This document shows, piece by piece, positions 1 to 11,480 of a stretch of DNA of 11,480 nucleotides. The position numbers and the translations under genes were made by a program. A model generated the notes under the pieces. It was not told the origin of the DNA, searched no databases, and worked only from the letters and a program-made list of their open reading frames with translations. The stretch's first letter is position 1, and every line of letters begins with the position of its first letter. This DNA comes from Acidobacteriaceae bacterium (lineage in GTDB: Bacteria; Acidobacteriota; Terriglobia; Terriglobales; Acidobacteriaceae): assembly GCA_003135495.1 (NCBI GenBank), contig PLBX01000143.1, positions 1 through 11,480 on the forward strand, read 5' to 3'.

Positions 1-1397
1 GCAGCCACCGTCTTCTTGTATTCGCGCGCCTTGGCAATGGCTTCTGCTTCGTTAACCGTCAGCAATTTGCGATCGCGCATCACAACACGGCCGCCGATCA
101 TCACCGTTTGCACATCGCTCCCCTTCAGCGCGTAAGCGATCTGCGCATAAATTTCATACATCGGCACGGCATTTGGTTCGTCGAGGCCAATCAGAATCAG
201 ATCCGCTTTCTTGCCTTTATCGAGTGACCCAATTTCATTTTCCATGTGCAGCGCCCGCGCACCATCGATTGTCGCCATCTCGACCACGGCGAGAGCATTC
301 AGAGCCAGCGGATTCATCTTTGAAATTTTCGCAAGCTTCGCCGCGAGGTCGATCTCTTCCATCAGATCGAGATCGTTGTTGCTGCCTGCCGGGCCATCGG
401 TTCCGAGCCCAACAGCGATGCCTGCGGCCCGCATCTCGGGCACGGGCGCAATTCCGCTCGCGATCATCATGTTGCTCGACGGATTATGCACGCACCCTAC
501 ATTGTGTTGCGCCAAAATCTTGCGATCCGTCTCGTCGACAAAGATGCAGTGTGCAGCGATGACATCGGGGCCAAGCACTCCGATCCGTTCCAGGTATTGC
601 ACCGGCGACGCCCCATTGTTCTTCTCACTGTCTTCCCATTCTTTTTTCATTTCCGCCATGTGAATCAGAATCGGAGCATGGTACTTTCGCGCCAAAGCAG
701 TCGCGTCCTGCAGGGTCTTCTGCGAGCAGGTATAAATCGAATGCGGAGCGGCCGCGGCATGGATCAGCGGATCCCACTGCCATTTCTTCAAGAATGCTTC
801 CGTGTAATTCAGCATGGCGGCTTCAGTTTTATTGTCGGGCGATGGGAAATCAATAAACGTCTCGCCCAGCACACCGCGCATGCCTGCTGCCTTGGTTTCT
901 TCAGCGACCGCGTCTTCGAAGTAATACATGTCTGCGAACGTGGTCACTCCCGAGCGAATCTGCTCGGCCGCTGCCAGCCGCGTTCCCCAGCGCACGAACT
1001 GCTCATTAACATTTTTCGCTTCCGCCGGGAAAATATATTTGTAGAGCCAGTCGCTAAGGGTTACATCGTCGTGCAATCCGCGAAATAAAGTCATCGGTAC
1101 ATGAGTATGCCCGTTGATAAATCCCGGCAGCACCAGCGTGTTCTTTGCATCAATTCGCTCGCGGCTCTCGTAGCGCGCTTCAATATCTTCCCGAGGCCCG
1201 ACGGCCACGATCGTATCGCCCTTCACGACGACTGCTCCGTCATTGAAGATATGCCGCTGGCCGTCCATAGAGACGACAATGCCAGTGATGATCGTATCGG
1301 AATGCTCTTTAGCATTTTGGCCGTAGAAAAGAATCGAGCAGCAAACTTGCAACGCACAAATCACTCGCATCAACCGATCCACACCTTTATTCGTCAT
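1..1397 (-). CDS. Exported-type amidohydrolase, MtaD/SsnA-like (5-methylthioadenosine/S-adenosylhomocysteine deaminase family), C-terminus beyond the window
   Basis: The reverse strand is open from an ATG at 1397 to the left edge (465 codons), so the extreme C-terminus is missing. The protein is a metal-dependent amidohydrolase with a TIM-barrel core. It shows the metal motif GHTH (His97, His99), a substrate-binding APHS (His219), IHMAE (His246, Glu249), AAHC (His283) and GLGTDG (Asp334). This spacing and the wording of the motifs match the MtaD/SsnA/TrzN group, which deaminates adenosine derivatives such as 5-methylthioadenosine or S-adenosylhomocysteine, or hydrolyses ring C-N or C-Cl bonds. 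The first 27 residues (charged start, then RVICALQVCCSILFYGQ) look like a signal peptide, which is unusual for this normally cytoplasmic group. A second possible start is Met10. The purine-rich stretch AGGGGAAGG before the ATG can act as ribosome binding site. It lies 54 bases after the AA_synth gene on the same strand, so co-transcription is possible. Family assignment is strong; substrate and location are inferred. Confidence 0.9.
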   Translation of the reverse strand, partial: MTNKGVDRLMRVICALQVCCSILFYGQNAKEHSDTIITGIVVSMDGQRHIFNDGAVVVKGDTIVAVGPREDIEARYESRERIDAKNTLVLPGFINGHTHVPMTLFRGLHDDVTLSDWLYKYIFPAEAKNVNEQFVRWGTRLAAAEQIRSGVTTFADMYYFEDAVAEETKAAGMRGVLGETFIDFPSPDNKTEAAMLNYTEAFLKKWQWDPLIHAAAAPHSIYTCSQKTLQDATALARKYHAPILIHMAEMKKEWEDSEKNNGASPVQYLERIGVLGPDVIAAHCIFVDETDRKILAQHNVGCVHNPSSNMMIASGIAPVPEMRAAGIAVGLGTDGPAGSNNDLDLMEEIDLAAKLAKISKMNPLALNALAVVEMATIDGARALHMENEIGSLDKGKKADLILIGLDEPNAVPMYEIYAQIAYALKGSDVQTVMIGGRVVMRDRKLLTVNEAEAIAKAREYKKTVA

Positions 1398-1451: not shown

Positions 1452-2036
1452 TCACCGCAGCCCGTCCTCACCCTTAATTTGATCTTTCGACAGCCCGCCG
1501 ACCCGAGCCAAAGGCCGCCCGCTATCCGTCACCGCAATCGCCACCACGATCTCGTTGGCACGTGGAGCGTCGCTGATCCGCACTTCCATGCCATCAAAAT
1601 GGCTGCGAACAAATGCAGCGTCTTTATGCCCGAGTGGAATATCGAGCACTACTCCTAACCCTCCGCGTTTTTTGGATGAAGGAATCAGCGCCGCCCCTTT
1701 GCCCAATACACGCCGCACCGGCGTGCCCAACTTGGGATGTAGGATCGCCGCAGCGTGCTCCAGTTCACCGTTCTCGCCCACCGCAGCGGCCTTCCCGTAA
1801 CTTTCGGCGGAGGGCCCGGCGATTCCAAGAGCCGCGACAGCGCGCTGCGTCAGCAGTTCGCCCAGTTCTTCGCCAATCGCCATCAACTCCGAGAGATCCT
1901 CAACGTACTTTCCCGCATACGGATTCTCAATCACCGCAACCGCCGCCGCGCGCCGCGTCGGCGGATCAACCTTCCTTCCCATCTCCGTCGACGTCTCTTC
2001 GACAAACGTTGCGATCTTCCGGATTTTAGCTTTCAT
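1452..2036 (-). CDS. AA_synth family protein (DUF1185), second copy
   Basis: This 194-residue protein belongs to the Pfam AA_synth family (formerly DUF1185), annotated as amino acid synthesis family protein although no reaction is established. Recognisable family segments are IRKIATFVEET at the start, VIENPYAGKYVEDL (about 36-49), ESYGKAAAVG, GELEHAAA (about 90-97), SSKKRGG, FVRSHFDGMEV and DAPRANEI. It has no signal peptide or membrane segment and is probably cytoplasmic. The ATG overlaps the TGA of the preceding paralogue as ATGA (4 bases), so translation is likely coupled. This copy looks like the more canonical of the two. It ends in the same six residues, GEDGLR, as its neighbour. As the last gene of the overlapping block it probably works on an intermediate of the molybdenum hydroxylase/reductase pathway; that is inference from position. 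Confidence 0.88.
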   Translation of the reverse strand: MKAKIRKIATFVEETSTEMGRKVDPPTRRAAAVAVIENPYAGKYVEDLSELMAIGEELGELLTQRAVAALGIAGPSAESYGKAAAVGENGELEHAAAILHPKLGTPVRRVLGKGAALIPSSKKRGGLGVVLDIPLGHKDAAFVRSHFDGMEVRISDAPRANEIVVAIAVTDSGRPLARVGGLSKDQIKGEDGLR

Positions 2037-2617
2037 CGCAGCCCGTCCTCTCCCTTAACCTCCGACGCCTTCAATCCGCCGACGCGCGCGTGAACTCGCG
2101 CGCCCGTTGTCATAACGAGTGCCAGCAAAATCTCATCGGCACGCGGAGCATCCGTGATTCCAATTTCCATCGCGTCGAAGTGGCTGCGGACGTACGAAGC
2201 GTTGATATGAGTAATCGGAATATCGAGCCGCGTGCCGGGCCCGCCAACTTTTTTTGTAGACGCCACGATCGCCTTCGCGCCTCCCAGTACCTCGCGCATC
2301 GCATAGCCGCCCGGAACATGCCAGAGCGCGCCGTGTTCCAGTTCTCCGCTCGCGCCAACGATCGCCCCTTTTCCGTAACCTTCAACCGCTTTGGGATTGC
2401 CACCCAGCGCTGCGACCAGCGACTTTGCCATTTCTAATCCGAGCGGCTTCAAGTCGTCCATGAAGTCTTCAATCTTTTCGACATAGCGACCAGCGTAGGG
2501 ATTCCGGATTACAACCAGCGCCGCCGCCCGTCGTTGCGGCGAAGGCGACACTGGCCCGCCTTCATGAAATATCTCTTCAACCAAAATAACTCGCTTGCGA
2601 ATCTGAACCTCAGGCAT
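2033..2617 (-). CDS. AA_synth family protein (DUF1185), first copy
   Basis: This is a 194-residue paralogue of the following gene: the two have identical length and roughly half their residues agree. Family motifs are QIRKRVILVEEIFHEGG near the start, VIRNPYAGRYVE, EGYGKGAIVG, GELEHGA, STKKVGGPG, YVRSHFDAMEI and DAPRADEI. The frame is open 25 codons further upstream, but the ATG at 2617 is preferred. It has GGAG eight bases upstream, gives a protein beginning like its paralogue, and overlaps the UPF0280 stop by only eight bases. The region after GELEHG (WHVPGGYAMREV) departs from the usual HPKLG-type sequence kept in the second copy, so the two may have divided roles or form a mixed complex. 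Biochemical function is unknown. Its place in a hydroxylase/reductase operon suggests a role in N-heterocycle breakdown (inference). Confidence 0.88.
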   Translation of the reverse strand: MPEVQIRKRVILVEEIFHEGGPVSPSPQRRAAALVVIRNPYAGRYVEKIEDFMDDLKPLGLEMAKSLVAALGGNPKAVEGYGKGAIVGASGELEHGALWHVPGGYAMREVLGGAKAIVASTKKVGGPGTRLDIPITHINASYVRSHFDAMEIGITDAPRADEILLALVMTTGARVHARVGGLKASEVKGEDGLR

Positions 2618-3509
2618 GAGCCGGACTCCAAATAAGACGTGAAACGTTTTCTGATGGCGCGCGTTTTTCCGAATCAAGAATACGCGTCGCACCCTGCAGA
2701 TTGAGAGCGGCGGCGCGAATCAGGCCAGAAGCTTTGAGCCTCTCAGCGACATCGAGTCCGCGCTCCAGCGCAATGCCAATTTCGCGCTGGCTGAGTTCAG
2801 GCACCGACTGAGTGACCATACGCTCGCCCAGATCGCTATCGGGAGCAAGGTCGCACGCCCGAACGCGGCCGATGCCATGGTGTTCGGGCAAGTCCACTGC
2901 ATTGGCTATGACGGTTGCCGCAGCATCAGCCATTGCGGCCGTCTCGGCAAGCACTGTAACCGCATCCGCAATGCCGAGCGAAAAACTTCGTCCGCGCCAG
3001 CCGCTCGTCGCGATGCCGCGAATCAGATCGCCATATCGAATTGTAGTTGTGCCGAAGAGCGAAGCTCGATCCGGACGTTCAACCATTCCCACGACAAAGG
3101 TTTCTTCATTCGCAAGATGCAGGGCGATATCGCCACCATCGTTCACATAAGCCTTGGAGAGCCTGGCGTTGGAAGTCATGGCCGCCAGAATTTCCTCCGC
3201 CACCGCACCCGCCACCGATGCCATTGGGGTAATGAAAATGTGCGCTGCGTAAGGCTTTACGGCCTCAGCCATCCGTCTGGCAATGGGGCCCGTGGGAAGC
3301 GGACCGTTTTGTCGCGCGGGCGATCGTAGAAAAATAAGTTCAGCGCACAACTCATCCAGCACTTGGACGAAGCGGGATGACGCCGCATTGTAAGCAGCAT
3401 TAATTTCTCTGGCTTCTCCGAAAGCTTCCACGATGAGGTCGATAGGACCGTCATGCATGTGCAGACGACAGCCGTCGGGAAGCATTCTAATTTGAGCGCG
3501 AGTGCTCAC
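2610..3509 (-). CDS. UPF0280 family protein (ApbE-like fold family)
   Basis: The 299-residue protein shows the UPF0280 opening MLPDGCRLHMHDGPIDLIVEA, followed by a helical segment with a conserved ELIFLRS-like stretch. Then come MASVAGAVAEEIL (about 105-117), AYVNDGGDIALHL (about 128-140) and GIATSGWRGRSFSLGIADAVTVLA (about 174-197). UPF0280 members are, from memory, placed structurally with ApbE-like proteins, the flavin-transferase/FAD-binding fold, but no activity is proven. The VNDGGDIALHL segment resembles the conserved NxGG region of ApbE, which fits a flavin- or metal-linked role. An in-frame GTG lies 24 bases upstream at 3533. The GTG at 3509 is preferred because GGAG sits eight bases before it and it overlaps the reductase stop as GTGA (4 bases). 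It is predicted cytoplasmic, with no signal peptide. Its tight placement right after the reductase suggests it serves that enzyme, for example in cofactor loading, or acts on its product (inference). Confidence 0.85.
   Translation of the reverse strand: MSTRAQIRMLPDGCRLHMHDGPIDLIVEAFGEAREINAAYNAASSRFVQVLDELCAELIFLRSPARQNGPLPTGPIARRMAEAVKPYAAHIFITPMASVAGAVAEEILAAMTSNARLSKAYVNDGGDIALHLANEETFVVGMVERPDRASLFGTTTIRYGDLIRGIATSGWRGRSFSLGIADAVTVLAETAAMADAAATVIANAVDLPEHHGIGRVRACDLAPDSDLGERMVTQSVPELSQREIGIALERGLDVAERLKASGLIRAAALNLQGATRILDSEKRAPSENVSRLIWSPAHA
2626..2629 (-). promoter_or_regulatory. Shine-Dalgarno GGAG deciding the start of the first AA_synth gene
   Basis: GGAG on the minus strand lies eight bases before the ATG at 2617, inside the end of the UPF0280 gene. 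It supports this start over the in-frame ATG at 2692, which would give an N-terminal extension not matching the family. Confidence 0.65.
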
Positions 3510-4960
3510 TTTATTTTCTCCGCTAGCGGCCACGGATTATCGGGCCGGGCTCCGAGCCGCCGTCGAGTGTCCGCGTCGCGCTGGATGGAGCCGAGAGGCC
3601 GTACGTGATCCATATATCCTCCCAGCGTGGCGTAGTCTGACAATTTCAACGTGAACTCAATTGGCGCCACCAGCGCGGGAGTTGGGACGTATCCGAAAGC
3701 ATCTTCCGGCATGCGGCTCACGTCAGCCATGATCGTAATTCCGCCGCCGGGCCAAACATAAACCGGAGCGCCTCCGCAAGTAACGCGAGTGAGCGCGTCG
3801 CGCACGGAATGCGTTAGCTTCACCGGATTCTCGGTGACGCCAGCGCGCAACGATCCTCCCGCGCCGCCCATGAACAATACCGTGCAGAGCGCAGGTTCGC
3901 AGTTTTCGCGAATGCGCGCCACCGACTCGCGCAACACTTCCGGCAGTTGTTTTTCTTTTGGATGGAGGTCATCGTCTAATTCAAAATATGCAAAGTGCTC
4001 ACCGGTGGTACTCACCATCAGCAACCGCATGCCGGGCCGAGCCACCTCACGATCAAATGGGGCAAGGATTGAAAGCGGATCATCAATGTTGGTGCCGCCC
4101 CACGAAGTGCCCGGCTCTGCGACTCGAAAATATCGTCCCGGCGTTGATCGCCGCCCCTTAAGCTTGATGCCGGTTTCTGGAACGCCGAGCAATTTTCCGG
4201 CTTGGTGTTCTGACAAAACACCGGTGATGTGATCGTCCACCACCACCACGTCGTCTACTTTTCCAAACCACTGCTTGGCGAACATGCCGATGGTGGCCGA
4301 ACCGCAGCCCACGCGCATGCGTTCTTCCTGCACTCCGTCGACAATGGGAGCCTTATCGGCTTGGACGACCACCGTCGCTCCGTCGTCAATCTTCAACTCG
4401 ACTGCTTTCCGATTGCACAAGTTCAACAAGGCATCGCACGTGGCAGTCCCTTCATGTCGAGTGCCGCCGGTGAGGTGCCGCACGCCGCCAAGCGAGAGCA
4501 TCTGCGATCCGTATTCGTTGGTTGTGACGTGTCCCACGGCCTCGCCCTGCGATCGCACTATGCTGCATTCCGCGCCCAGATGGCGATCGGTGTCGATCTT
4601 TAATTTCACGCCGCAGTAACTGAAAATTCCCTCGGTCACTACCGTGACCATATCCACGCCCGCGACTTCGGACGAAATAATAAATGGGGCAGGCTTGTAA
4701 TCGGGATAAGTAGTACCGGCCCCGATGGCGGTCACAAATGTTTCTTCGCCGCTTACAAGGGCGCCACTCCACTTGCGCGATTTTTCAAGAAAGGGAACTA
4801 CTGTCTCGCCCCGCGATACGGCTCCCTCCAGAACAACGTGCGGGTCAAGCCGCACCAGTTGGCCATCGGCGTTGCCGTAGCGATCGCACGAACCTGTTCT
4901 TCCGGGCTTGATGTAACACAACACCGGACAGGCATCGCAGCGAATTGCGTCGTCAGCCAC
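3506..4960 (-). CDS. hnr: 6-hydroxynicotinate reductase homologue (iron-sulfur enoate-type ring reductase)
   Basis: The 484-residue protein resembles 6-hydroxynicotinate reductase. In Eubacterium barkeri nicotinate fermentation that enzyme uses reduced ferredoxin to turn 6-hydroxynicotinate into 6-oxo-1,4,5,6-tetrahydronicotinate. The N-terminus IRCDACPVLCYIKPGRTGSCDRY holds Cys8, Cys11, Cys15 and Cys25, a likely iron-sulfur cluster site. Next come GAGTTYPDYKPAPFIISSEVAGVDMVTVVTEG-type and GVKLKIDTDRHLGAE segments (about residues 80-130), TGGTRHEGTATCD (about 165-177), MRVGCGSATIGMF (about 218-230) and WPGGGITIMADV (about 410-421). It is cytoplasmic. The start is GTG with GGAG six bases upstream, and it overlaps the molybdenum hydroxylase stop by eight bases. 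The neighbouring hydroxylase could supply the hydroxylated ring. The family match is strong, but similar proteins in soil bacteria are annotated by homology only, so the substrate may be another pyridine or N-heterocycle. Confidence 0.82.
   Translation of the reverse strand: MADDAIRCDACPVLCYIKPGRTGSCDRYGNADGQLVRLDPHVVLEGAVSRGETVVPFLEKSRKWSGALVSGEETFVTAIGAGTTYPDYKPAPFIISSEVAGVDMVTVVTEGIFSYCGVKLKIDTDRHLGAECSIVRSQGEAVGHVTTNEYGSQMLSLGGVRHLTGGTRHEGTATCDALLNLCNRKAVELKIDDGATVVVQADKAPIVDGVQEERMRVGCGSATIGMFAKQWFGKVDDVVVVDDHITGVLSEHQAGKLLGVPETGIKLKGRRSTPGRYFRVAEPGTSWGGTNIDDPLSILAPFDREVARPGMRLLMVSTTGEHFAYFELDDDLHPKEKQLPEVLRESVARIRENCEPALCTVLFMGGAGGSLRAGVTENPVKLTHSVRDALTRVTCGGAPVYVWPGGGITIMADVSRMPEDAFGYVPTPALVAPIEFTLKLSDYATLGGYMDHVRPLGSIQRDADTRRRLGARPDNPWPLAEKIK
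3518..3521 (-). promoter_or_regulatory. Shine-Dalgarno GGAG deciding the GTG start of the UPF0280 gene
   Basis: GGAG on the minus strand is followed by eight bases (AAAATAAA) and then GTG at 3509, which itself overlaps the TGA of the reductase gene. This arrangement favours 3509 over the upstream in-frame GTG at 3533. Confidence 0.65.
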
Positions 4961-7787
4961 GCGAGACTCCGGTTGTATTCTGATTTGTCGCCGCTTGAAT
5001 CGCGGCCAGCACGCGATCAGGAGTTGCTGGAATTTTTCTTAGCCGGACTCCGATGGCGTCATGCAGCGCATTCAGAATCGCCGGGGCTGTCGGAATCACC
5101 GCCTGTTCGCCAATCCCTTTCGCTCCAAACGGGCCGACCGGCGAGGGATCTTCGATCAGTATCGATTCAACTGGAGGAATATCTCCCGCCGACGGAATTA
5201 AATAATCGTGCAGGTTCTCGCCTTTGCCGGGGAAGAATTCCTCCATTAAAGCCATGCCTAAACCTTGGGCCACGCCGCCTTCGATCTGTCCCTCGATCAG
5301 CGTCGGATTGATGGCGCGGCCTACATCATGAGCCGCCGTCACACGCAATACGCGCACCGTGCCAAGTTCAATATCGACTTCAATCTCCGCCATGTGTGCC
5401 CCGAATCCGTAGACGCAATAGGGAGAACCCTGCCCGTTTTCATCGAGCGGACTGGTTGGCGGATCGAATGTTGCCTCGCTGGTGATCACATATCCACGCT
5501 CATCAAGCGGCAAATCCTTGAGCATCAGCGCGTGTGATTCAGCGCCATCGCGAACAGTGATGCCCGCATCATCCCACACAAGACTCGCGCACTCGCATGC
5601 TCCCGCAAGTTTTAAAATCCCGCCACGCAATTTTTCGCCTGCCATCTGCGCTGCCCTGCCGGTCACGAGTGTCTGGCGAGACGCGGAAGTTTTGCCGCAA
5701 TCCGGCGTGATTGCCGTATCTCCTGAAACTAAATCGAAGCGCTCAATGGGAGCGCCCAGTGCGTCAGCGCAGATCTGCGTCACAATCGTGTTCGATCCTT
5801 GTCCAATATCCACCGCTCCTTGATGTAGCGCGATTCGGCCATCGCGCTTCAATCCAATTCGCATCGTTGAAGGATTGGGCAGGGAAGTATTCCCGCATCC
5901 ATACCACATCCCGGCAACGCCGACGCCGCGTCGCAGCGCACCACTCGGGAGCCGATTGAATTTCGCCGCTTCGCTACGCGCCGACTTCCATCTCGGGCGC
6001 AATGCTTCGAAGCAGGCGCGAATGCCAACGCCAGCGCCCAGAACCTGGCCCGTAACGGTCGGAGTCGTTCCGTCAAGCGCATTCAGAATACGGAACTCCA
6101 GGCGATCCATCCCGACGCGATCGGCCAGTTCGTCATAAAGTTGTTCTTGCGCAATGGCGGCCTGCGGAACTCCGAACCCGCGAAACGCCCCGGCTGGCAC
6201 CAAGTTTGTGTGCACCGCGCGCGTTAAAGCTCGGTAATGCGGAACATAATAAGGACCAGAAGCATGAACCGGCACACGCGCCGAGACCGTCGGTCCCCAG
6301 GAGGAATACGCGCCGGTGTTAAAGTCGGCGGCGAAATCGAGCGCGACCAGTTTGCCATCCTTATTGCAGCCGCCGCGAAGGCGCATGCGCGCAGGATGCC
6401 TTTTTGTCGTCGAGACAATCGACTCCGTCCTCGAATAGACCATGCGCACCGGCTTGCGTAGGTGCCATGCAGCGATGGCGAGAAACGGCTGCATTGAAAG
6501 ATCGAGCTTCGAACCAAATCCCCCACCCACTGCGGTCGGGATAATGCGAACTCGTTCGGGCGCGATGCCCAGAATCGCGGCGATATCGCTGCGATCCATG
6601 TAAGGAGATTGCGTGCAGGCTTGAATTTCGATCTGATCGCCGACGCGGCGCGCGAATCCCGCCTCGGGTTCAATGTATGCGTGCTCGACAAACCCAGTTT
6701 CGTATTCGGCTTCGGCGATTACATCAGCCGAGGCCATCGCGAGATCAACGTCGCCACGCACCACTCGTCCGCGCACCAGAACATTCTCTGGACGATGGTC
6801 GTGGATGAGCTCCGCGCCCTCCGCAAGCGCCGTATCAATATCGCGGATTGCCGGCAGTTCTTCCCATCTCACGGGGAAGTCCGCCACGTTCAGCGACTCG
6901 ACGACCGCCGCATCGCCAACGATGGCCGCCACGGCTTCGCCGCGATAACGCGCTTCAGTCTCAGCAAATACGGGTTGATCCGCGAACTTGGCGATGACGC
7001 CGTAGCAATTTATTCCCGGCACATCGTTTGCAGTAAACACGGCTTCAATGCCGGGGTTATCGCGAAAAAATGCTTTGAAATCCTCAAAATGAAATCGCGC
7101 CCTATCATAAGGTGAACGAATCGCTCTTACCGCCAGCGCTCCTGCAGGAGTTTCGTCGGCACCAAAGACTTCACTTCCATCTATTTTTCTTTTTCCATCC
7201 AACCGGGCGAGTCTGTTTCCAACCGCGGCTCCAGCGTTCGGCGAGACGAACCACTCGTGAGCGCAATTCGTCGAAGCATCGAGAATTGCGGTGATGATTT
7301 TGCGATATCCGGTGCACCGGCAAAGGACGCCGCCGATTGCATCCATCACGTCGCTTTCGTTGGGCGAGGAATTCTGTTCCAGCAGCGCAGTTGCCGCTAC
7401 CAACATTCCCGGCGTGCAGGCTCCGCATTGCGCGGCCCCGTGCGAGAGAAATGACTCCTGTAACCTGCGTCCCAGGAAGTCGCCTGAAGGTGACGTTCGC
7501 TCCGCTAATCCCTCTACCGTCGTCACGTCGCAGCCTTCCACCTGTCCGGCGGCGACGAGGCAAGCACACACCGGATCGCCGTTCAACAATACCGTGCAAG
7601 CTCCGCAATCTCCCGCGTCGCAACCCACCTTCGTTCCCGTAAGCCCTAGGTCATCACGCAATACACGGGAAAGGCGCTGCCACGGCAGGCTGCCAACAGT
7701 AACCGGCCGCCCATTCACGCGGAATGCGATGGGATCGATAATCGATTCCTTCGGCGCGTTTTGTGTCATTTGTTGAGTCCGATCCAT
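4953..7787 (-). CDS. Molybdenum hydroxylase large subunit: [2Fe-2S] domain fused to molybdopterin-binding domain (xanthine dehydrogenase family)
   Basis: This 944-residue protein fuses two subunits that are often separate. Residues about 15-170 form the double [2Fe-2S] unit: a plant-type cluster (Cys56, Cys61, Cys64, Cys76) and an alpha-helical cluster (Cys121, Cys124, Cys156, Cys158 in CGACTPG and CRCTGY). From about residue 185 a xanthine dehydrogenase a/b hammerhead leads into the molybdopterin domain. That domain has GGGFGSK (about 421-427), GAFRGFG (about 533-539), GQGSNT (about 662-667) and GAKGIGE, whose Glu894 is the expected catalytic base. The enzyme family hydroxylates aromatic N-heterocycles or aldehydes with water-derived oxygen. 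The ATG at 7787 is preferred over the one at 7805 because GGAGAAGAG precedes it and its A is shared with the TGA of the FAD gene (TGATG, one-base overlap). The next gene, a ring reductase, suggests a nicotinate-like substrate; specificity cannot be read from sequence alone. No XdhC-type maturation gene is in the window. Confidence 0.92.
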   Translation of the reverse strand: MDRTQQMTQNAPKESIIDPIAFRVNGRPVTVGSLPWQRLSRVLRDDLGLTGTKVGCDAGDCGACTVLLNGDPVCACLVAAGQVEGCDVTTVEGLAERTSPSGDFLGRRLQESFLSHGAAQCGACTPGMLVAATALLEQNSSPNESDVMDAIGGVLCRCTGYRKIITAILDASTNCAHEWFVSPNAGAAVGNRLARLDGKRKIDGSEVFGADETPAGALAVRAIRSPYDRARFHFEDFKAFFRDNPGIEAVFTANDVPGINCYGVIAKFADQPVFAETEARYRGEAVAAIVGDAAVVESLNVADFPVRWEELPAIRDIDTALAEGAELIHDHRPENVLVRGRVVRGDVDLAMASADVIAEAEYETGFVEHAYIEPEAGFARRVGDQIEIQACTQSPYMDRSDIAAILGIAPERVRIIPTAVGGGFGSKLDLSMQPFLAIAAWHLRKPVRMVYSRTESIVSTTKRHPARMRLRGGCNKDGKLVALDFAADFNTGAYSSWGPTVSARVPVHASGPYYVPHYRALTRAVHTNLVPAGAFRGFGVPQAAIAQEQLYDELADRVGMDRLEFRILNALDGTTPTVTGQVLGAGVGIRACFEALRPRWKSARSEAAKFNRLPSGALRRGVGVAGMWYGCGNTSLPNPSTMRIGLKRDGRIALHQGAVDIGQGSNTIVTQICADALGAPIERFDLVSGDTAITPDCGKTSASRQTLVTGRAAQMAGEKLRGGILKLAGACECASLVWDDAGITVRDGAESHALMLKDLPLDERGYVITSEATFDPPTSPLDENGQGSPYCVYGFGAHMAEIEVDIELGTVRVLRVTAAHDVGRAINPTLIEGQIEGGVAQGLGMALMEEFFPGKGENLHDYLIPSAGDIPPVESILIEDPSPVGPFGAKGIGEQAVIPTAPAILNALHDAIGVRLRKIPATPDRVLAAIQAATNQNTTGVSRG

Positions 7788-8638
7788 CAACTCTTCTCCG
7801 CGCATGCGTTTACTGCGCGCCGAACCAATTGTAGAGAAGCTTTCATACGGTACTCTGCGGTCGCTCGAACATCATCGATCGGTGAGAGCGAAGCCAGATG
7901 TTCAGGACGCACCCTGGCTCCGAGATCGCGGTTGGCGGGCAGTCCAACCAACTCATGCTCTAGAGCGGGCAAGCGACGCGCCACAGCCGAGCATGATCCT
8001 ACCGCGATTCTGGCGGCCAAAACTGTTTCTTCCTCGCTCATCTTTAACACCACCGCGACCATCGAGATCGAGATGACCAGATAACGGCGCGCTCCGAGCT
8101 TCACAAATTTCGAAGCGGCGTTCTCCAATTCGCGCGGGACCAGCACGGCGGACAACAACTCATCCCCTCTGCGGTGCGTCTTTCGATTTCCTACGATAAA
8201 TTCTGCTAACGGCATTCTTCTCACGCCGCGTTGTGAAATTAACTCTACCTCCGCATCCAAGGCCAACAGCGGGGGAACGCCGTCGGCGGCGGGCGACGCA
8301 TTGCACAAATTGCCCGCGACCGTACCGCGGTTCTGTATCTGCACCGATCCAACTTCTCGTGCCGCGCTTTTTAATGCATAGAGAGCTCGAGGAAGCGGCG
8401 TTCGAATGACGTCCGTCCAGGTCGTCAGGCCGCCAATTCGGATGTAGTCTGGCTCAGTCGAGATGCCGCGCAGATCGCCCAGTCCGGAAATGTCCACAAC
8501 CGCATCTTGTACGACTCGCTCTCCGAGCGATGGATAAAAATCCGTTCCTCCGGACAAGATGCGAGTCGCACCCGAGGCCAGCAGAGCCGTGGCTTCGTTC
8601 ACCGTTTTAGGTTTGATGTAAGACGCTTGGGTGGACAA
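7787..8638 (-). CDS. FAD-binding subunit of molybdenum hydroxylase (CoxM/XdhB type)
   Basis: The 283-residue protein has the two FAD-contact motifs of the family: ILSGGTDFYPSLGE (about 28-41), and TVAGNLCNASPAADGVPPLLALD (about 107-129). The C-terminal CO_deh_flav_C-type domain follows (about 175-280, including KLGARRYLVISI and RIAVGSCSAVARRLPALE). It accepts electrons from the [2Fe-2S] centres of the fused large subunit and passes them to an external acceptor. The start is TTG at 8638: the reading frame has no ATG before the stop at 8681-8683, and the product begins SYIKPKTVNEA exactly where family members begin. A GGGGA stretch five bases before the TTG may bind the ribosome. It is the first gene of the overlapping operon. 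The rare start may lower its yield, so translation could be a control point (inference). Confidence 0.9.
   Translation of the reverse strand: MSTQASYIKPKTVNEATALLASGATRILSGGTDFYPSLGERVVQDAVVDISGLGDLRGISTEPDYIRIGGLTTWTDVIRTPLPRALYALKSAAREVGSVQIQNRGTVAGNLCNASPAADGVPPLLALDAEVELISQRGVRRMPLAEFIVGNRKTHRRGDELLSAVLVPRELENAASKFVKLGARRYLVISISMVAVVLKMSEEETVLAARIAVGSCSAVARRLPALEHELVGLPANRDLGARVRPEHLASLSPIDDVRATAEYRMKASLQLVRRAVNACAEKS
7791..7799 (-). promoter_or_regulatory. Strong Shine-Dalgarno GGAGAAGAG for the molybdenum hydroxylase large subunit
   Basis: The minus strand reads GGAGAAGAG three bases before the ATG at 7787 (the GGAG core is eight bases before it). The site lies within the last codons of the FAD subunit gene. 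It argues for the 7787 start instead of the in-frame ATG at 7805, which would leave this site inside the coding sequence. Confidence 0.7.
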
Positions 8639-8788: not shown

Positions 8789-8866
8789 AGAATGTAATTG
8801 ATTGGCGAGGGTCTCTGTGCAATCCTGTTCAGCGCAATTCGATGAAGCAAAAAATGGAGAATGCCG

Positions 8867-9394
8867 ATGCGACTCAAAGTTGCGCTCGCCGTGCTCGTCA
8901 GTTCCTCCCTCGCCCTCTGGGCCGCGGATACAATCATTCCGCTCGACGTTAAGCTTGGGCTCTGGCAGATGTCCGTTACTCACTCCATGAGTGGCATACC
9001 CGCACTTCCAGCCGACACGCTCGCTAAAATGTCGCCCGAACAGCGCTCTCGTTTCGAAGCTGCCATGAAGCAAAGCGGCGCGGGCGAGCCAACTACAAAC
9101 GTTCATAAAGAATGCGTCACCAAAGAAAAACTCGATAAGGATTTGGCGTTTAACGATAACCACAAGAATTGCACGCGTACCATCGTGAGTTCATCGAGCA
9201 GAAAACTTGAATTTAAGTTGCACTGCGAAGAAGAGAGAGGCAAGACCGACGGCACTTTCATATTGGAAGTTGTGAACTCCGAAGCCACCAAGGGCTCGAT
9301 GCATTCCGTCACCAATTTCAACGGGCGAAACGTCAATATGGATTTTACGTTCGATTCGAAATACCTCGGCTCGGATTGCGGAGACGTGAAGTAG
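8867..9394 (+). CDS. Secreted DUF3617 family protein
   Basis: The 175-residue protein starts with a clear signal peptide (MRLKVALAVLVSSSLALWAADT), cleaved probably after WA or AAD. The mature part begins with the DUF3617 signature LGLWQMSVTHSMSGIPALP (about 30-48). It continues with four cysteines (in KECVTKE, NCTRTI, LHCEEE and SDCGD) that may form two disulfide bonds, as expected for a protein outside the cytoplasm. The family is common in Acidobacteria and Proteobacteria and has no known biochemical function. An ATG at 8861 is in frame, but the ATG at 8867 is preferred because GGAGA at 8856-8860 is then six bases away and the signal peptide starts cleanly. It is transcribed away from the catabolic operon and converges on the membrane-protein gene. 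Nothing in it ties it to the N-heterocycle pathway. Confidence 0.85.
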   Translation: MRLKVALAVLVSSSLALWAADTIIPLDVKLGLWQMSVTHSMSGIPALPADTLAKMSPEQRSRFEAAMKQSGAGEPTTNVHKECVTKEKLDKDLAFNDNHKNCTRTIVSSSSRKLEFKLHCEEERGKTDGTFILEVVNSEATKGSMHSVTNFNGRNVNMDFTFDSKYLGSDCGDVK

Positions 9395-10230: not shown

Positions 10231-11480
10231 CTAGTTGTCCCCATCGTCGCCGCTGCTGAGTGCTGCCACATTACTGGGAGCCGTTGACATGGCGCCCCAG
10301 ACCACACTCAAGCTATTGAGCAGGTTAGAGCCTGCGCCCCAAACTACACTCGTGGCACCCCACACTACCGAGTTGCTTGTGATAGCGTTGGCACCCCAAA
10401 CTACTGAATTTCCCCAAACCACCGAATTCGCCCCCCAAACAACGCTGGCGCCTCCGAAGGCCGAGGTGGATGTATTCACGATCGTGACACTACCGTTCGG
10501 GTTTCGGACTGCGGTCGGAGAGAGAGCTAATCCGTTCGCGAGATCCGTACTGTTAAGAGCGGCGTCGACATCCATATAGCCCGCCCCGTAGGTGAAGATG
10601 TCGGCCTCGTTGTTGTAAGTATTGCCCCAGCTATCGTGCGACCACGAGAACTGGGAGTACTGGCCGAAACCTTTCCAGGCTGTCTTCATCAAGGTGGCTT
10701 TCACTTGATCCGGAGTCAGCGCTGGATTGTTCTGCAACAGTAACGCCACCGCACCGCTCACCACCGGCGTCGCCATGCTGGTTCCGCTTAACACGAAGTA
10801 CATTGGGGCGCCCGGAGGGGGTGGAGGTGGAGTTCCGGGAGGTCCAGGAGGTGCAGGAGCAGGCCCCACTTCGTACTGCGGATACTTTACGTCCAGCGTG
10901 CTGCCCGCGGCCCGCAAGGATACGAGTCGGTTGCCGGGTGCGACCAGGTCAGGTTTCACGACGTGATCGATTGCCGTCGGCCCTTTGGAGCTGTAGCTGG
11001 CAATCTTGTCGTCGACCCGCGACATCGTATTTTCAGTCATCGTCGCTCCCACGGTAAGAACGGCGGGATCGTTTCCCGGAACGCCGACAGTGACAAAACC
11101 CTGTGTCGGCGCATAGCGTCCGTTGTTGCCCGCAGCCACTACCACCACAATGCCTGCCTTCCACGCAGCTTCCACTGCCTGGTCGACTGGATCGAGGGTG
11201 TAGCTTTCGAACACCGGGCGTCCGAGAGACATATTGATCACCCGGATGTTGTAGGTGCTCTGCAGCTCGATCGCCTGTTCAATGGCAGCGATTACCTGGC
11301 TGTCGGTGCCGGAACCGTTCTGGTCCAGCACGCGCAAGTTGATGAGATTAACGTTCGGAGCCATACCGGCGTAGTTCGCTTGGTAGCCGTTGGCGTTGCC
11401 CGAATTAAGGCCTGAGCCACCGACGAGCCCGGCAACGTGCGTGCCGTGGCCGAAGGTGTCGGCAGTCGTGCTATCGCCAA
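10231..11480 (-). CDS. Subtilisin-like serine protease (peptidase S8), N-terminus beyond the window
   Basis: The frame is open to the right edge (415 codons visible plus stop), so the signal peptide, any propeptide and the catalytic Asp lie outside. The catalytic His is in FGHGTHVAG (11446-11448), the oxyanion Asn in VVAAGNNG (11125-11127), and the nucleophile Ser in LSGTSMATP (10777-10779). KPDLVAPG is also typical of S8. A proline-rich stretch (10804-10863: PAPAPPGPPG then TPPPPPPGAP) is inserted in the catalytic domain shortly before the nucleophile. After the domain ends (AGYMDVDAAL), the C-terminus carries six SVVWG repeats and an acidic end, DDGDN. Such proteases are normally secreted and act outside the cell; their substrates are unknown. 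No LPXTG or other sorting signal is seen. It precedes the membrane-protein gene by 30 bases. Confidence 0.93.
   Translation of the reverse strand, partial: GDSTTADTFGHGTHVAGLVGGSGLNSGNANGYQANYAGMAPNVNLINLRVLDQNGSGTDSQVIAAIEQAIELQSTYNIRVINMSLGRPVFESYTLDPVDQAVEAAWKAGIVVVVAAGNNGRYAPTQGFVTVGVPGNDPAVLTVGATMTENTMSRVDDKIASYSSKGPTAIDHVVKPDLVAPGNRLVSLRAAGSTLDVKYPQYEVGPAPAPPGPPGTPPPPPPGAPMYFVLSGTSMATPVVSGAVALLLQNNPALTPDQVKATLMKTAWKGFGQYSQFSWSHDSWGNTYNNEADIFTYGAGYMDVDAALNSTDLANGLALSPTAVRNPNGSVTIVNTSTSAFGGASVVWGANSVVWGNSVVWGANAITSNSVVWGATSVVWGAGSNLLNSLSVVWGAMSTAPSNVAALSSGDDGDN
10294..10446 (-). repeat. Six SVVWG repeats at the protease C-terminus
   Basis: The coding strand holds six copies of a unit encoding Ser-Val-Val-Trp-Gly, usually followed by Ala or Asn, with spacings of 7, 6, 12, 7 and 14 residues. 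The DNA copies differ in third positions (for example CCCCAGACCAC, CCCCAAACTAC and CCCCACACTAC on the plus strand), which indicates selection on the peptide and not a recent slippage event. SVVWG tails are, to my knowledge, frequent on acidobacterial S8 proteases, but their role is not established. Confidence 0.9.

Follow-up and report, generated by a model that had tools for sequence, protein, structure and literature searches.

What is the function of an operon in which a molybdenum hydroxylase and a 6-hydroxynicotinate-reductase-like (Hnr-like) protein are encoded together with one UPF0280 and two AA_synth proteins, and in which the enamidase expected to follow the reductase seems to be missing? 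The question is raised by the window analysed here, an 11,480-nucleotide stretch of DNA from an Acidobacteriaceae bacterium that represents the entire contig C201 (11,480/11,480 bases), and for which a preliminary description had proposed a variant or undescribed N-heterocycle pathway with UPF0280 and AA_synth in place of the later enzymes. The answer that we consider likely, taking as one explanation the operon, two facing contig ends, the substrate and the roles of UPF0280 and of the second AA_synth copy, is that the block serves nicotinate catabolism by the reductive (tetrahydro-oxonicotinate, THON) route in a member of the Acidobacteriota, placed by its relatives in the Terriglobia. The pathway itself is known and the window operon is its acidobacterial member; what is new is the assignment of orphan families to pathway steps, with UPF0280 apparently linked to the reductase and AA_synth copy B to the enamidase.

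The operon and its interrupted end

All six minus-strand genes of the block were located, by open reading frames (ORFs) and domain profile searches, where the preliminary description had placed them (Table 1), and its overlapping six-gene operon stands: given a start of AA_synth copy A at 2617, neighbouring genes share 19, 8, 28, 8 and 4 bases at the five junctions. The ORF of this copy is open up to 2692 and relatives indicate the ATG at 2617 as the start; the longest ORF is thus probably over-extended. Loci homologous to the Hnr-like protein, many with an enamidase nearby, were collected (80 of 99 were kept), and of the 81 reductase loci, the window included, 77 have UPF0280, 71 have AA_synth and 70 have the molybdenum subunit. 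Since the same gene order recurs in Acidobacteriota and Proteobacteria, the block is far from a chance assemblage. The preliminary description is right in that this is an N-heterocycle operon, most likely for nicotinate, with whose pathway UPF0280 and AA_synth belong.

The window ends within a seventh same-strand gene (3-1397), so that the lack of later genes in it carries no weight; the source genome (4.76 Mb, 592 contigs) is 75% complete. Longer contigs are available from the near relatives L001, L002, L003 and L005; in these, a convergent gene comes after the amidohydrolase gene, and a nicotinamidase-like gene comes next. The L007 product of the convergent gene family matches the crystal structure of Eubacterium barkeri enamidase (2vun) with an E value of 2.1e-110. 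The same genome as the window holds an enamidase gene at C184:3979-5031, the product of which is 85% identical to the L007 enamidase over 351 residues; contig C184 terminates at base 5031 within this gene (residues 1-351 of 399), the gene adjoins a nicotinamidase-like gene, and the further genes are ordered as in the unbroken relatives L001 and L002. In the simplest reading, a single assembly gap separates C184 from C201, with their ends facing. Because C184 ends in an enamidase gene set in the gene order of the relatives, the "missing enamidase" is very probably an artefact of the contig edge, and the proposal that this enzyme had been replaced falls for this genome. Of the 49 searched genomes that have the reductase, 39 gave an enamidase match, including all 14 named acidobacterial ones (50 of the 80 loci were chosen and 49 searched, L051 being left out). 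A gene for a Na+-dependent nucleoside transporter comes after the nicotinamidase-like gene in this lineage (L001:17381-18616, C184:1858-3090).

In the proposed pathway the molybdenum hydroxylase would convert nicotinate to 6-hydroxynicotinate, the Hnr-like protein would reduce the latter to 1,4,5,6-tetrahydro-6-oxonicotinate (THON), and the enamidase, the gene of which would lie on the opposite strand just past the contig end, would hydrolyse THON to 2-formylglutarate and ammonium, while the product of the adjoining nicotinamidase-like gene would feed nicotinamide into the pathway. UPF0280 would be a dedicated accessory of Hnr, loading or holding a cofactor by an ApbE-like fold that is devoid of the flavin-transfer segment; AA_synth B would work with the enamidase on its product, in the decarboxylation or keto-enol conversion of 2-formylglutarate toward glutarate semialdehyde; and AA_synth A, the role of which is least certain, would stay with Hnr and UPF0280. 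The aerobic route is said, after Kitts in 1992, to proceed by decarboxylation. This route goes via glutarate (PMC3511419), and a bifunctional enamidase has been described that converts THON to (S)-2-formylglutarate (PMC9304392).

The two copies of AA_synth

The AA_synth tree was built from ORFs of at least 170 residues (127 of 129), 102 of which come from two-copy loci. In the 51 two-copy loci one branch (support 0.839) sorts 102/102 copies by position, with A beside UPF0280 and B second, and the two copies are old paralogues.

Several arrangements place copy B with the enamidase. In L036, L039, L041, L045 and L048 it lies outside the block, beside the enamidase, and A remains in the block; in L160, L161, L169, L170 and L182 it is likewise beside the enamidase, away from the Hnr block; in the genome of L043 an enamidase and a B-like AA_synth occur together on another contig; and AA_synth-enamidase pairs are found in two reductase-less genomes, G405 and G547 (loci given as L196 and L204). 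In L113 an enamidase-AA_synth pair is directly followed by a DUF2848 gene (L113:7298-8044).

Counts over genomes point the same way. For the 44 class-sample genomes that have the reductase, B is present in 14/14 with enamidase, in 3/18 with the HyuAB pair or part of it (see below) and in 4/12 with neither (enamidase vs HyuAB genomes, p 1.5e-6), the corresponding figures for A being 11/14 and 8/18 in the first two groups. On the reductase tree (43 rows, from which G576 and G373, with Hnr cut or broken, were dropped and to which the window was added) B needs 5 changes and the enamidase 8; within a 30-row clade the genomes with enamidase are spread over four separate branches, each of which also has B, and B occurs besides in G449, sister of one of them. 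The link is weaker in the first set, i.e., the 49 genomes of the enamidase search, where B accompanies the enamidase in 39/39 genomes, two unclear cases being counted as B, vs 5/10 without it (p 1.3e-4), or in 37/39 vs 5/10 when the unclear cases are not taken as B (p 0.002). The independence of these families from the reductase, which the preliminary description had named as a ground for refutation, holds partly for AA_synth, present in 17 of 245 genomes without reductase (one sub-cut-off match, G401, excluded) and hence not limited to the pathway, and does not hold for the long UPF0280.

Nicotinate and trigonelline pathways each yield a formyl-dicarboxylate that loses CO2 to give a semialdehyde. 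In five of nine other AA_synth loci (L115, L119, L121, L127, L131) genes for a luciferase-like monooxygenase, flavin reductase, alpha/beta hydrolase or aldehyde dehydrogenase lie nearby, a make-up that we take to be that of the trigonelline cluster with TgnF. A decarboxylase or tautomerase role would explain both settings of AA_synth, and as the function of AA_synth B on 2-formylglutarate it is put forward tentatively, given that the enamidase of E. barkeri is reported to be bifunctional on its own and that B also occurs in the 3/18 HyuAB genomes. It is quite conceivable, if short of probable, that AA_synth B is instead non-catalytic, a subunit or activator of the enamidase or of the aldehyde dehydrogenase that follows; to this would correspond its tight gene pairing with the enamidase and the report that TgnF, an AA_synth homologue, stimulates TgnE-dependent succinate semialdehyde oxidation, no such effect being observed for HcdD (PMC7913881), whereas the hexameric state that both solved PF06684 proteins adopt on their own (PMC2954203) and the many polar residues invariant in both copies, an enzyme-like feature, speak for catalysis.

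In a phylum-sample genome without reductase an A-like AA_synth (L132) lies beside genes for an FAA hydrolase, a ketopantoate reductase and an aminotransferase, which would be another use of the family, outside the reductase context.

The substrate

Nicotinate is the most likely substrate of the operon because of the nicotinamidase-like neighbours, found in 17/81 reductase loci, and of the hydroxylases of L028, L031 and L065, in which the same reductase block is accompanied by a molybdenum protein of 1,174-1,201 residues with three CxxCH motifs, presumably the layout of NicB. The fused molybdenum subunit of the window has both [2Fe-2S] motifs and no CxxCH. That homologous enzymes here degrade a different ring, be it another pyridine carboxylate, a pyrimidine or a purine, appears unlikely: the top scores of the hydroxylase are with xanthine-dehydrogenase-type models, all under cut-off, the type of hydroxylase differs among loci while the reductase is constant, and nucleoside genes are nearby (the transporter in L001, nucleoside-hydrolase-like genes in 9 loci), but both the enamidase with the nicotinamidase-like neighbours and the published nicotinate cluster of Bradyrhizobiaceae (PMC3511419) indicate nicotinate.

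In the phylum sample AA_synth occurs in 4/297 genomes and the reductase in 1/297, the genome of the window being included in both; despite this rarity, many acidobacterial reductase loci were met in the contig-level genome scan. The two locus samples overlap, L028 lying in G313 and L054 being apparently the contig of L150.

UPF0280 and the Hnr-like reductase

At an E value of 0.001 neither Pfam nor NCBIfam has a family that matches the Hnr-like protein. A Bradyrhizobiaceae homologue is 42% identical to E. barkeri Hnr (PMC3511419). Four N-terminal cysteines (8, 11, 15, 25) are invariant and probably constitute an Fe-S cluster site, which from its appearance may be of the [4Fe-4S] type. Models were made from alignments of 44 of the 81 Hnr-like proteins and of 34 UPF0280 proteins. 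UPF0280 was matched in all 44 genomes with Hnr, in 42 of them over the cut-off, and in 43/44 it is encoded on the same strand at most 300 base pairs away; among genomes without Hnr matches were found in 4/245, weak and none over the cut-off. UPF0280 is thus the probable partner that services the Hnr-like reductase, and the cofactor work proposed for it in the preliminary description is possible.

As to the nature of this service, UPF0280 has the ApbE fold, from which it might be supposed that it is a flavin transferase that attaches flavin mononucleotide covalently to the Hnr-like protein. The H-x-I-D-P-x-T-G segment of ApbE holds the catalytic histidine, and [ST]GA[ST] is the core of the known flavin-transfer target motif. 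In the hhalign comparison with E. coli Ftp, a weak alignment (probability 25-47), UPF0280 has a gap opposite the H-V-I-D-P-Q-T-G segment; its score with the Pfam ApbE model is 12 bits, short of the gathering cut-off of 25.6; and [ST]GA[ST] is present in 0/81 Hnr-like proteins. Flavin transfer is, by these three observations, quite improbable, and a dedicated accessory of the reductase remains the preferred reading. No homology was detected between the Hnr-like protein and HcyBio/DUF39 (PF01837) by hhalign (probability 0.2, E 0.35), and a literature search, with subscription papers mostly outside its range, returned no paper with the term UPF0280 and none linking this family to the nicotinate pathway.

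A possible HyuAB branch

The preliminary description had called for a survey of loci devoid of enamidase; such loci exist, but many of them carry a caprolactamase-like HyuAB pair. Of the 44 class-sample genomes with the reductase, 14 showed enamidase, 18 a complete or partial HyuAB pair and 12 neither of the two, and none showed both (p 1.4e-4). HyuA and HyuB of L044 have caprolactamase CapA (523 bits) and CapB (322 bits) as best matches, each under the cut-off of 1000. THON is a lactam. L044, L054, L148, L150, L151 and L154 (L054 and L150 being probably one contig) share the operon arrangement Hnr-UPF0280-HyuA-HyuB, and AA_synth A lies between UPF0280 and HyuA in L153, L164, L171, L180 and L184, with the reductase on another contig in L180 and L184. 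At L044:12294-16069 and in L148, L150, L151 and L154 the genes for the Hnr-like protein, UPF0280 and HyuA-HyuB have no enamidase or AA_synth gene between them. Caprolactamase depends on ATP and has relatives among other enzymes that hydrolyse lactams (PMC8453981). The HyuAB pair is accordingly placed as a candidate ring opener in many loci without detected enamidase; it may represent an alternative opening of the THON ring, or the substrate may differ.

An enamidase-free pathway with ring opening by AA_synth and UPF0280 is hardly tenable, for although the enamidase is not on the window contig and 10/49 reductase genomes gave no enamidase match, three of them keeping both AA_synth copies adjoining (L053, L065, L073), it is contradicted for this genome by the enamidase at the contig end and the gene order of the relatives, many enamidase-less loci have the HyuAB pair, and copy B is found with the enamidase (14/14) and not in its place, being mostly absent from HyuAB loci rather than taking over in them, so that nothing indicates that UPF0280 or AA_synth stands in for this enzyme.

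Weight and significance of the assignments

Several points weigh against the explanation as a whole. The protein roles are predictions from sequence and gene context, and the name Hnr rests on the preliminary description, on PMC3511419 and on context. The genomes are related, so that all p-values overstate independence; the score limits for copy B were fixed after the scores had been seen; and the search for enamidase and HyuAB in the class sample covered fetched stretches only. Copy B is present in 3/18 HyuAB genomes and in 5/10 first-set genomes without detected enamidase. Finally, the scan of other AA_synth loci comprised nine, their neighbours in part, with L120, L122 and L124-L126 outside it, and four of the nine (L123, L128, L130, L132) have unrelated neighbours.

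We know of no reaction for PF06684 or for UPF0280/COG2122. The partition described here, of UPF0280 with the reductase, of AA_synth B with the enamidase, and with the exchange of enamidase and HyuAB, points to protein-substrate pairs. The context behind the name AA_synth may also be read anew: the 2010 crystal-structure paper on PF06684 tied SPO0826 (2qtp) to amino-acid metabolism by the adjoining genes of a branched-chain ATP-binding cassette (ABC) transporter (PMC2954203), copy B of the window is a close homologue of SPO0826 (phmmer E 4.9e-88), and a branched-chain-type ABC transporter is often near AA_synth in the present clusters, where that of the published cluster is a putative nicotinate transporter (PMC3511419). 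More speculatively, and with a good deal of doubt, the observations could be read jointly: AA_synth B and TgnF would be cofactor-free formyl-dicarboxylate decarboxylases or tautomerases, UPF0280/COG2122 a maturation or cofactor protein for both Hnr and DUF39/HcyBio, and HyuAB an ATP-dependent ring-opening branch. If true, 2-formylglutarate (nicotinate) and 2-formylsuccinate (trigonelline) would be the substrates of AA_synth B and TgnF, respectively, UPF0280 would serve two unrelated families of redox enzymes, and the HyuAB branch would be one undescribed so far.

Features of the window

The two AA_synth proteins of the window score 250.5 and 239.7 bits against a Pfam gathering score of 27. The amidohydrolase gene directly after AA_synth B, of a family seen in 10/81 reductase loci, has PRK09045 as its best NCBIfam match (443 bits, under the cut-off of 540); its product has a hydrophobic N-terminal stretch with cysteines, possibly a signal peptide or lipobox. 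Just upstream of the operon, on the opposite strand, a DUF3617 protein is encoded at 8861-9394, to which L001 and L002 have counterparts in the same position, and a subtilase (PF00082) at 10231-11478, truncated by the contig end, has a C-terminus of repeated SVVWG-like units.

Table 1. Genes of the operon and the gene that follows it, with window positions
Feature	Position	Strand	Evidence and remarks
FAD (flavin adenine dinucleotide) subunit of molybdenum hydroxylase, first gene	7787-8638	-	PF00941 E 1.5e-42, PF03450; TTG start
Fused [2Fe-2S]/molybdenum-cofactor subunit, candidate nicotinate hydroxylase	4953-7805	-	Fer2, Fer2_2, MoCoBD_1, MoCoBD_2
Hnr-like (6-hydroxynicotinate-reductase-like) protein, putative	3506-4960	-	GTG start; homology and context
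UPF0280 protein, long type	2610-3533	-	NF003322 (PRK04334.1-2) 395 bits, NCBIfam cut-off 290 exceeded
AA_synth copy A	2033-2617	-	PF06684 E 1.8e-71; clade A
AA_synth copy B, enamidase-linked clade	1452-2036	-	PF06684 E 8.4e-75; clade B
TRZ/ATZ-type amidohydrolase, truncated by contig end, not enamidase	3-1397	-	PF01979; cluster c11

Comparison with known systems

The trigonelline (tgn) pathway ends in a semialdehyde and its ring is opened by an oxygenase. Its cluster resembles the window in having an AA_synth protein (TgnF) in a pyridine-carboxylate pathway; on the other hand, the tgn-like AA_synth copies, from clusters identified by gene content, fit clades A and B poorly.

COG2122/UPF0280 acts with DUF39 (HcyBio) in homocysteine synthesis, as judged from a genetic phenotype (PMC5764234), and in 10 of the 12 other phylum-sample genomes with a UPF0280 match a short UPF0280 and a PF01837 match lie at most 0.6 kb apart. 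The likeness to the window is that a UPF0280 protein is encoded beside a redox enzyme, whereas the window has the long UPF0280 and, as partner, the Hnr-like protein, which shows no detected homology to HcyBio.

With the fermentation cluster of E. barkeri the window pathway shares the molybdenum hydroxylase, the putative Hnr-type reduction and the enamidase (L007 protein vs 2vun), but E. barkeri continues via 2-hydroxymethylglutarate to propionate, unlike the route proposed for the window.

The nicotinate cluster of Azorhizobium caulinodans and Bradyrhizobiaceae comprises the genes for the first three steps, including an Hnr homologue, and two unknown genes (PMC3511419); since next to the reductase the Bradyrhizobium locus L031 has a single UPF0280 and a single AA_synth, we infer that the two are UPF0280 and AA_synth. 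The window differs by its acidobacterial host, by the fused Fe-S/molybdenum and FAD subunits in place of the three-CxxCH type of L031, by two copies of AA_synth, by the additional TRZ/ATZ-type amidohydrolase and by having no ABC transporter genes, and it is like this cluster in the genes for the first three steps, the putative Hnr homologue among them, and presumably in UPF0280 and AA_synth.

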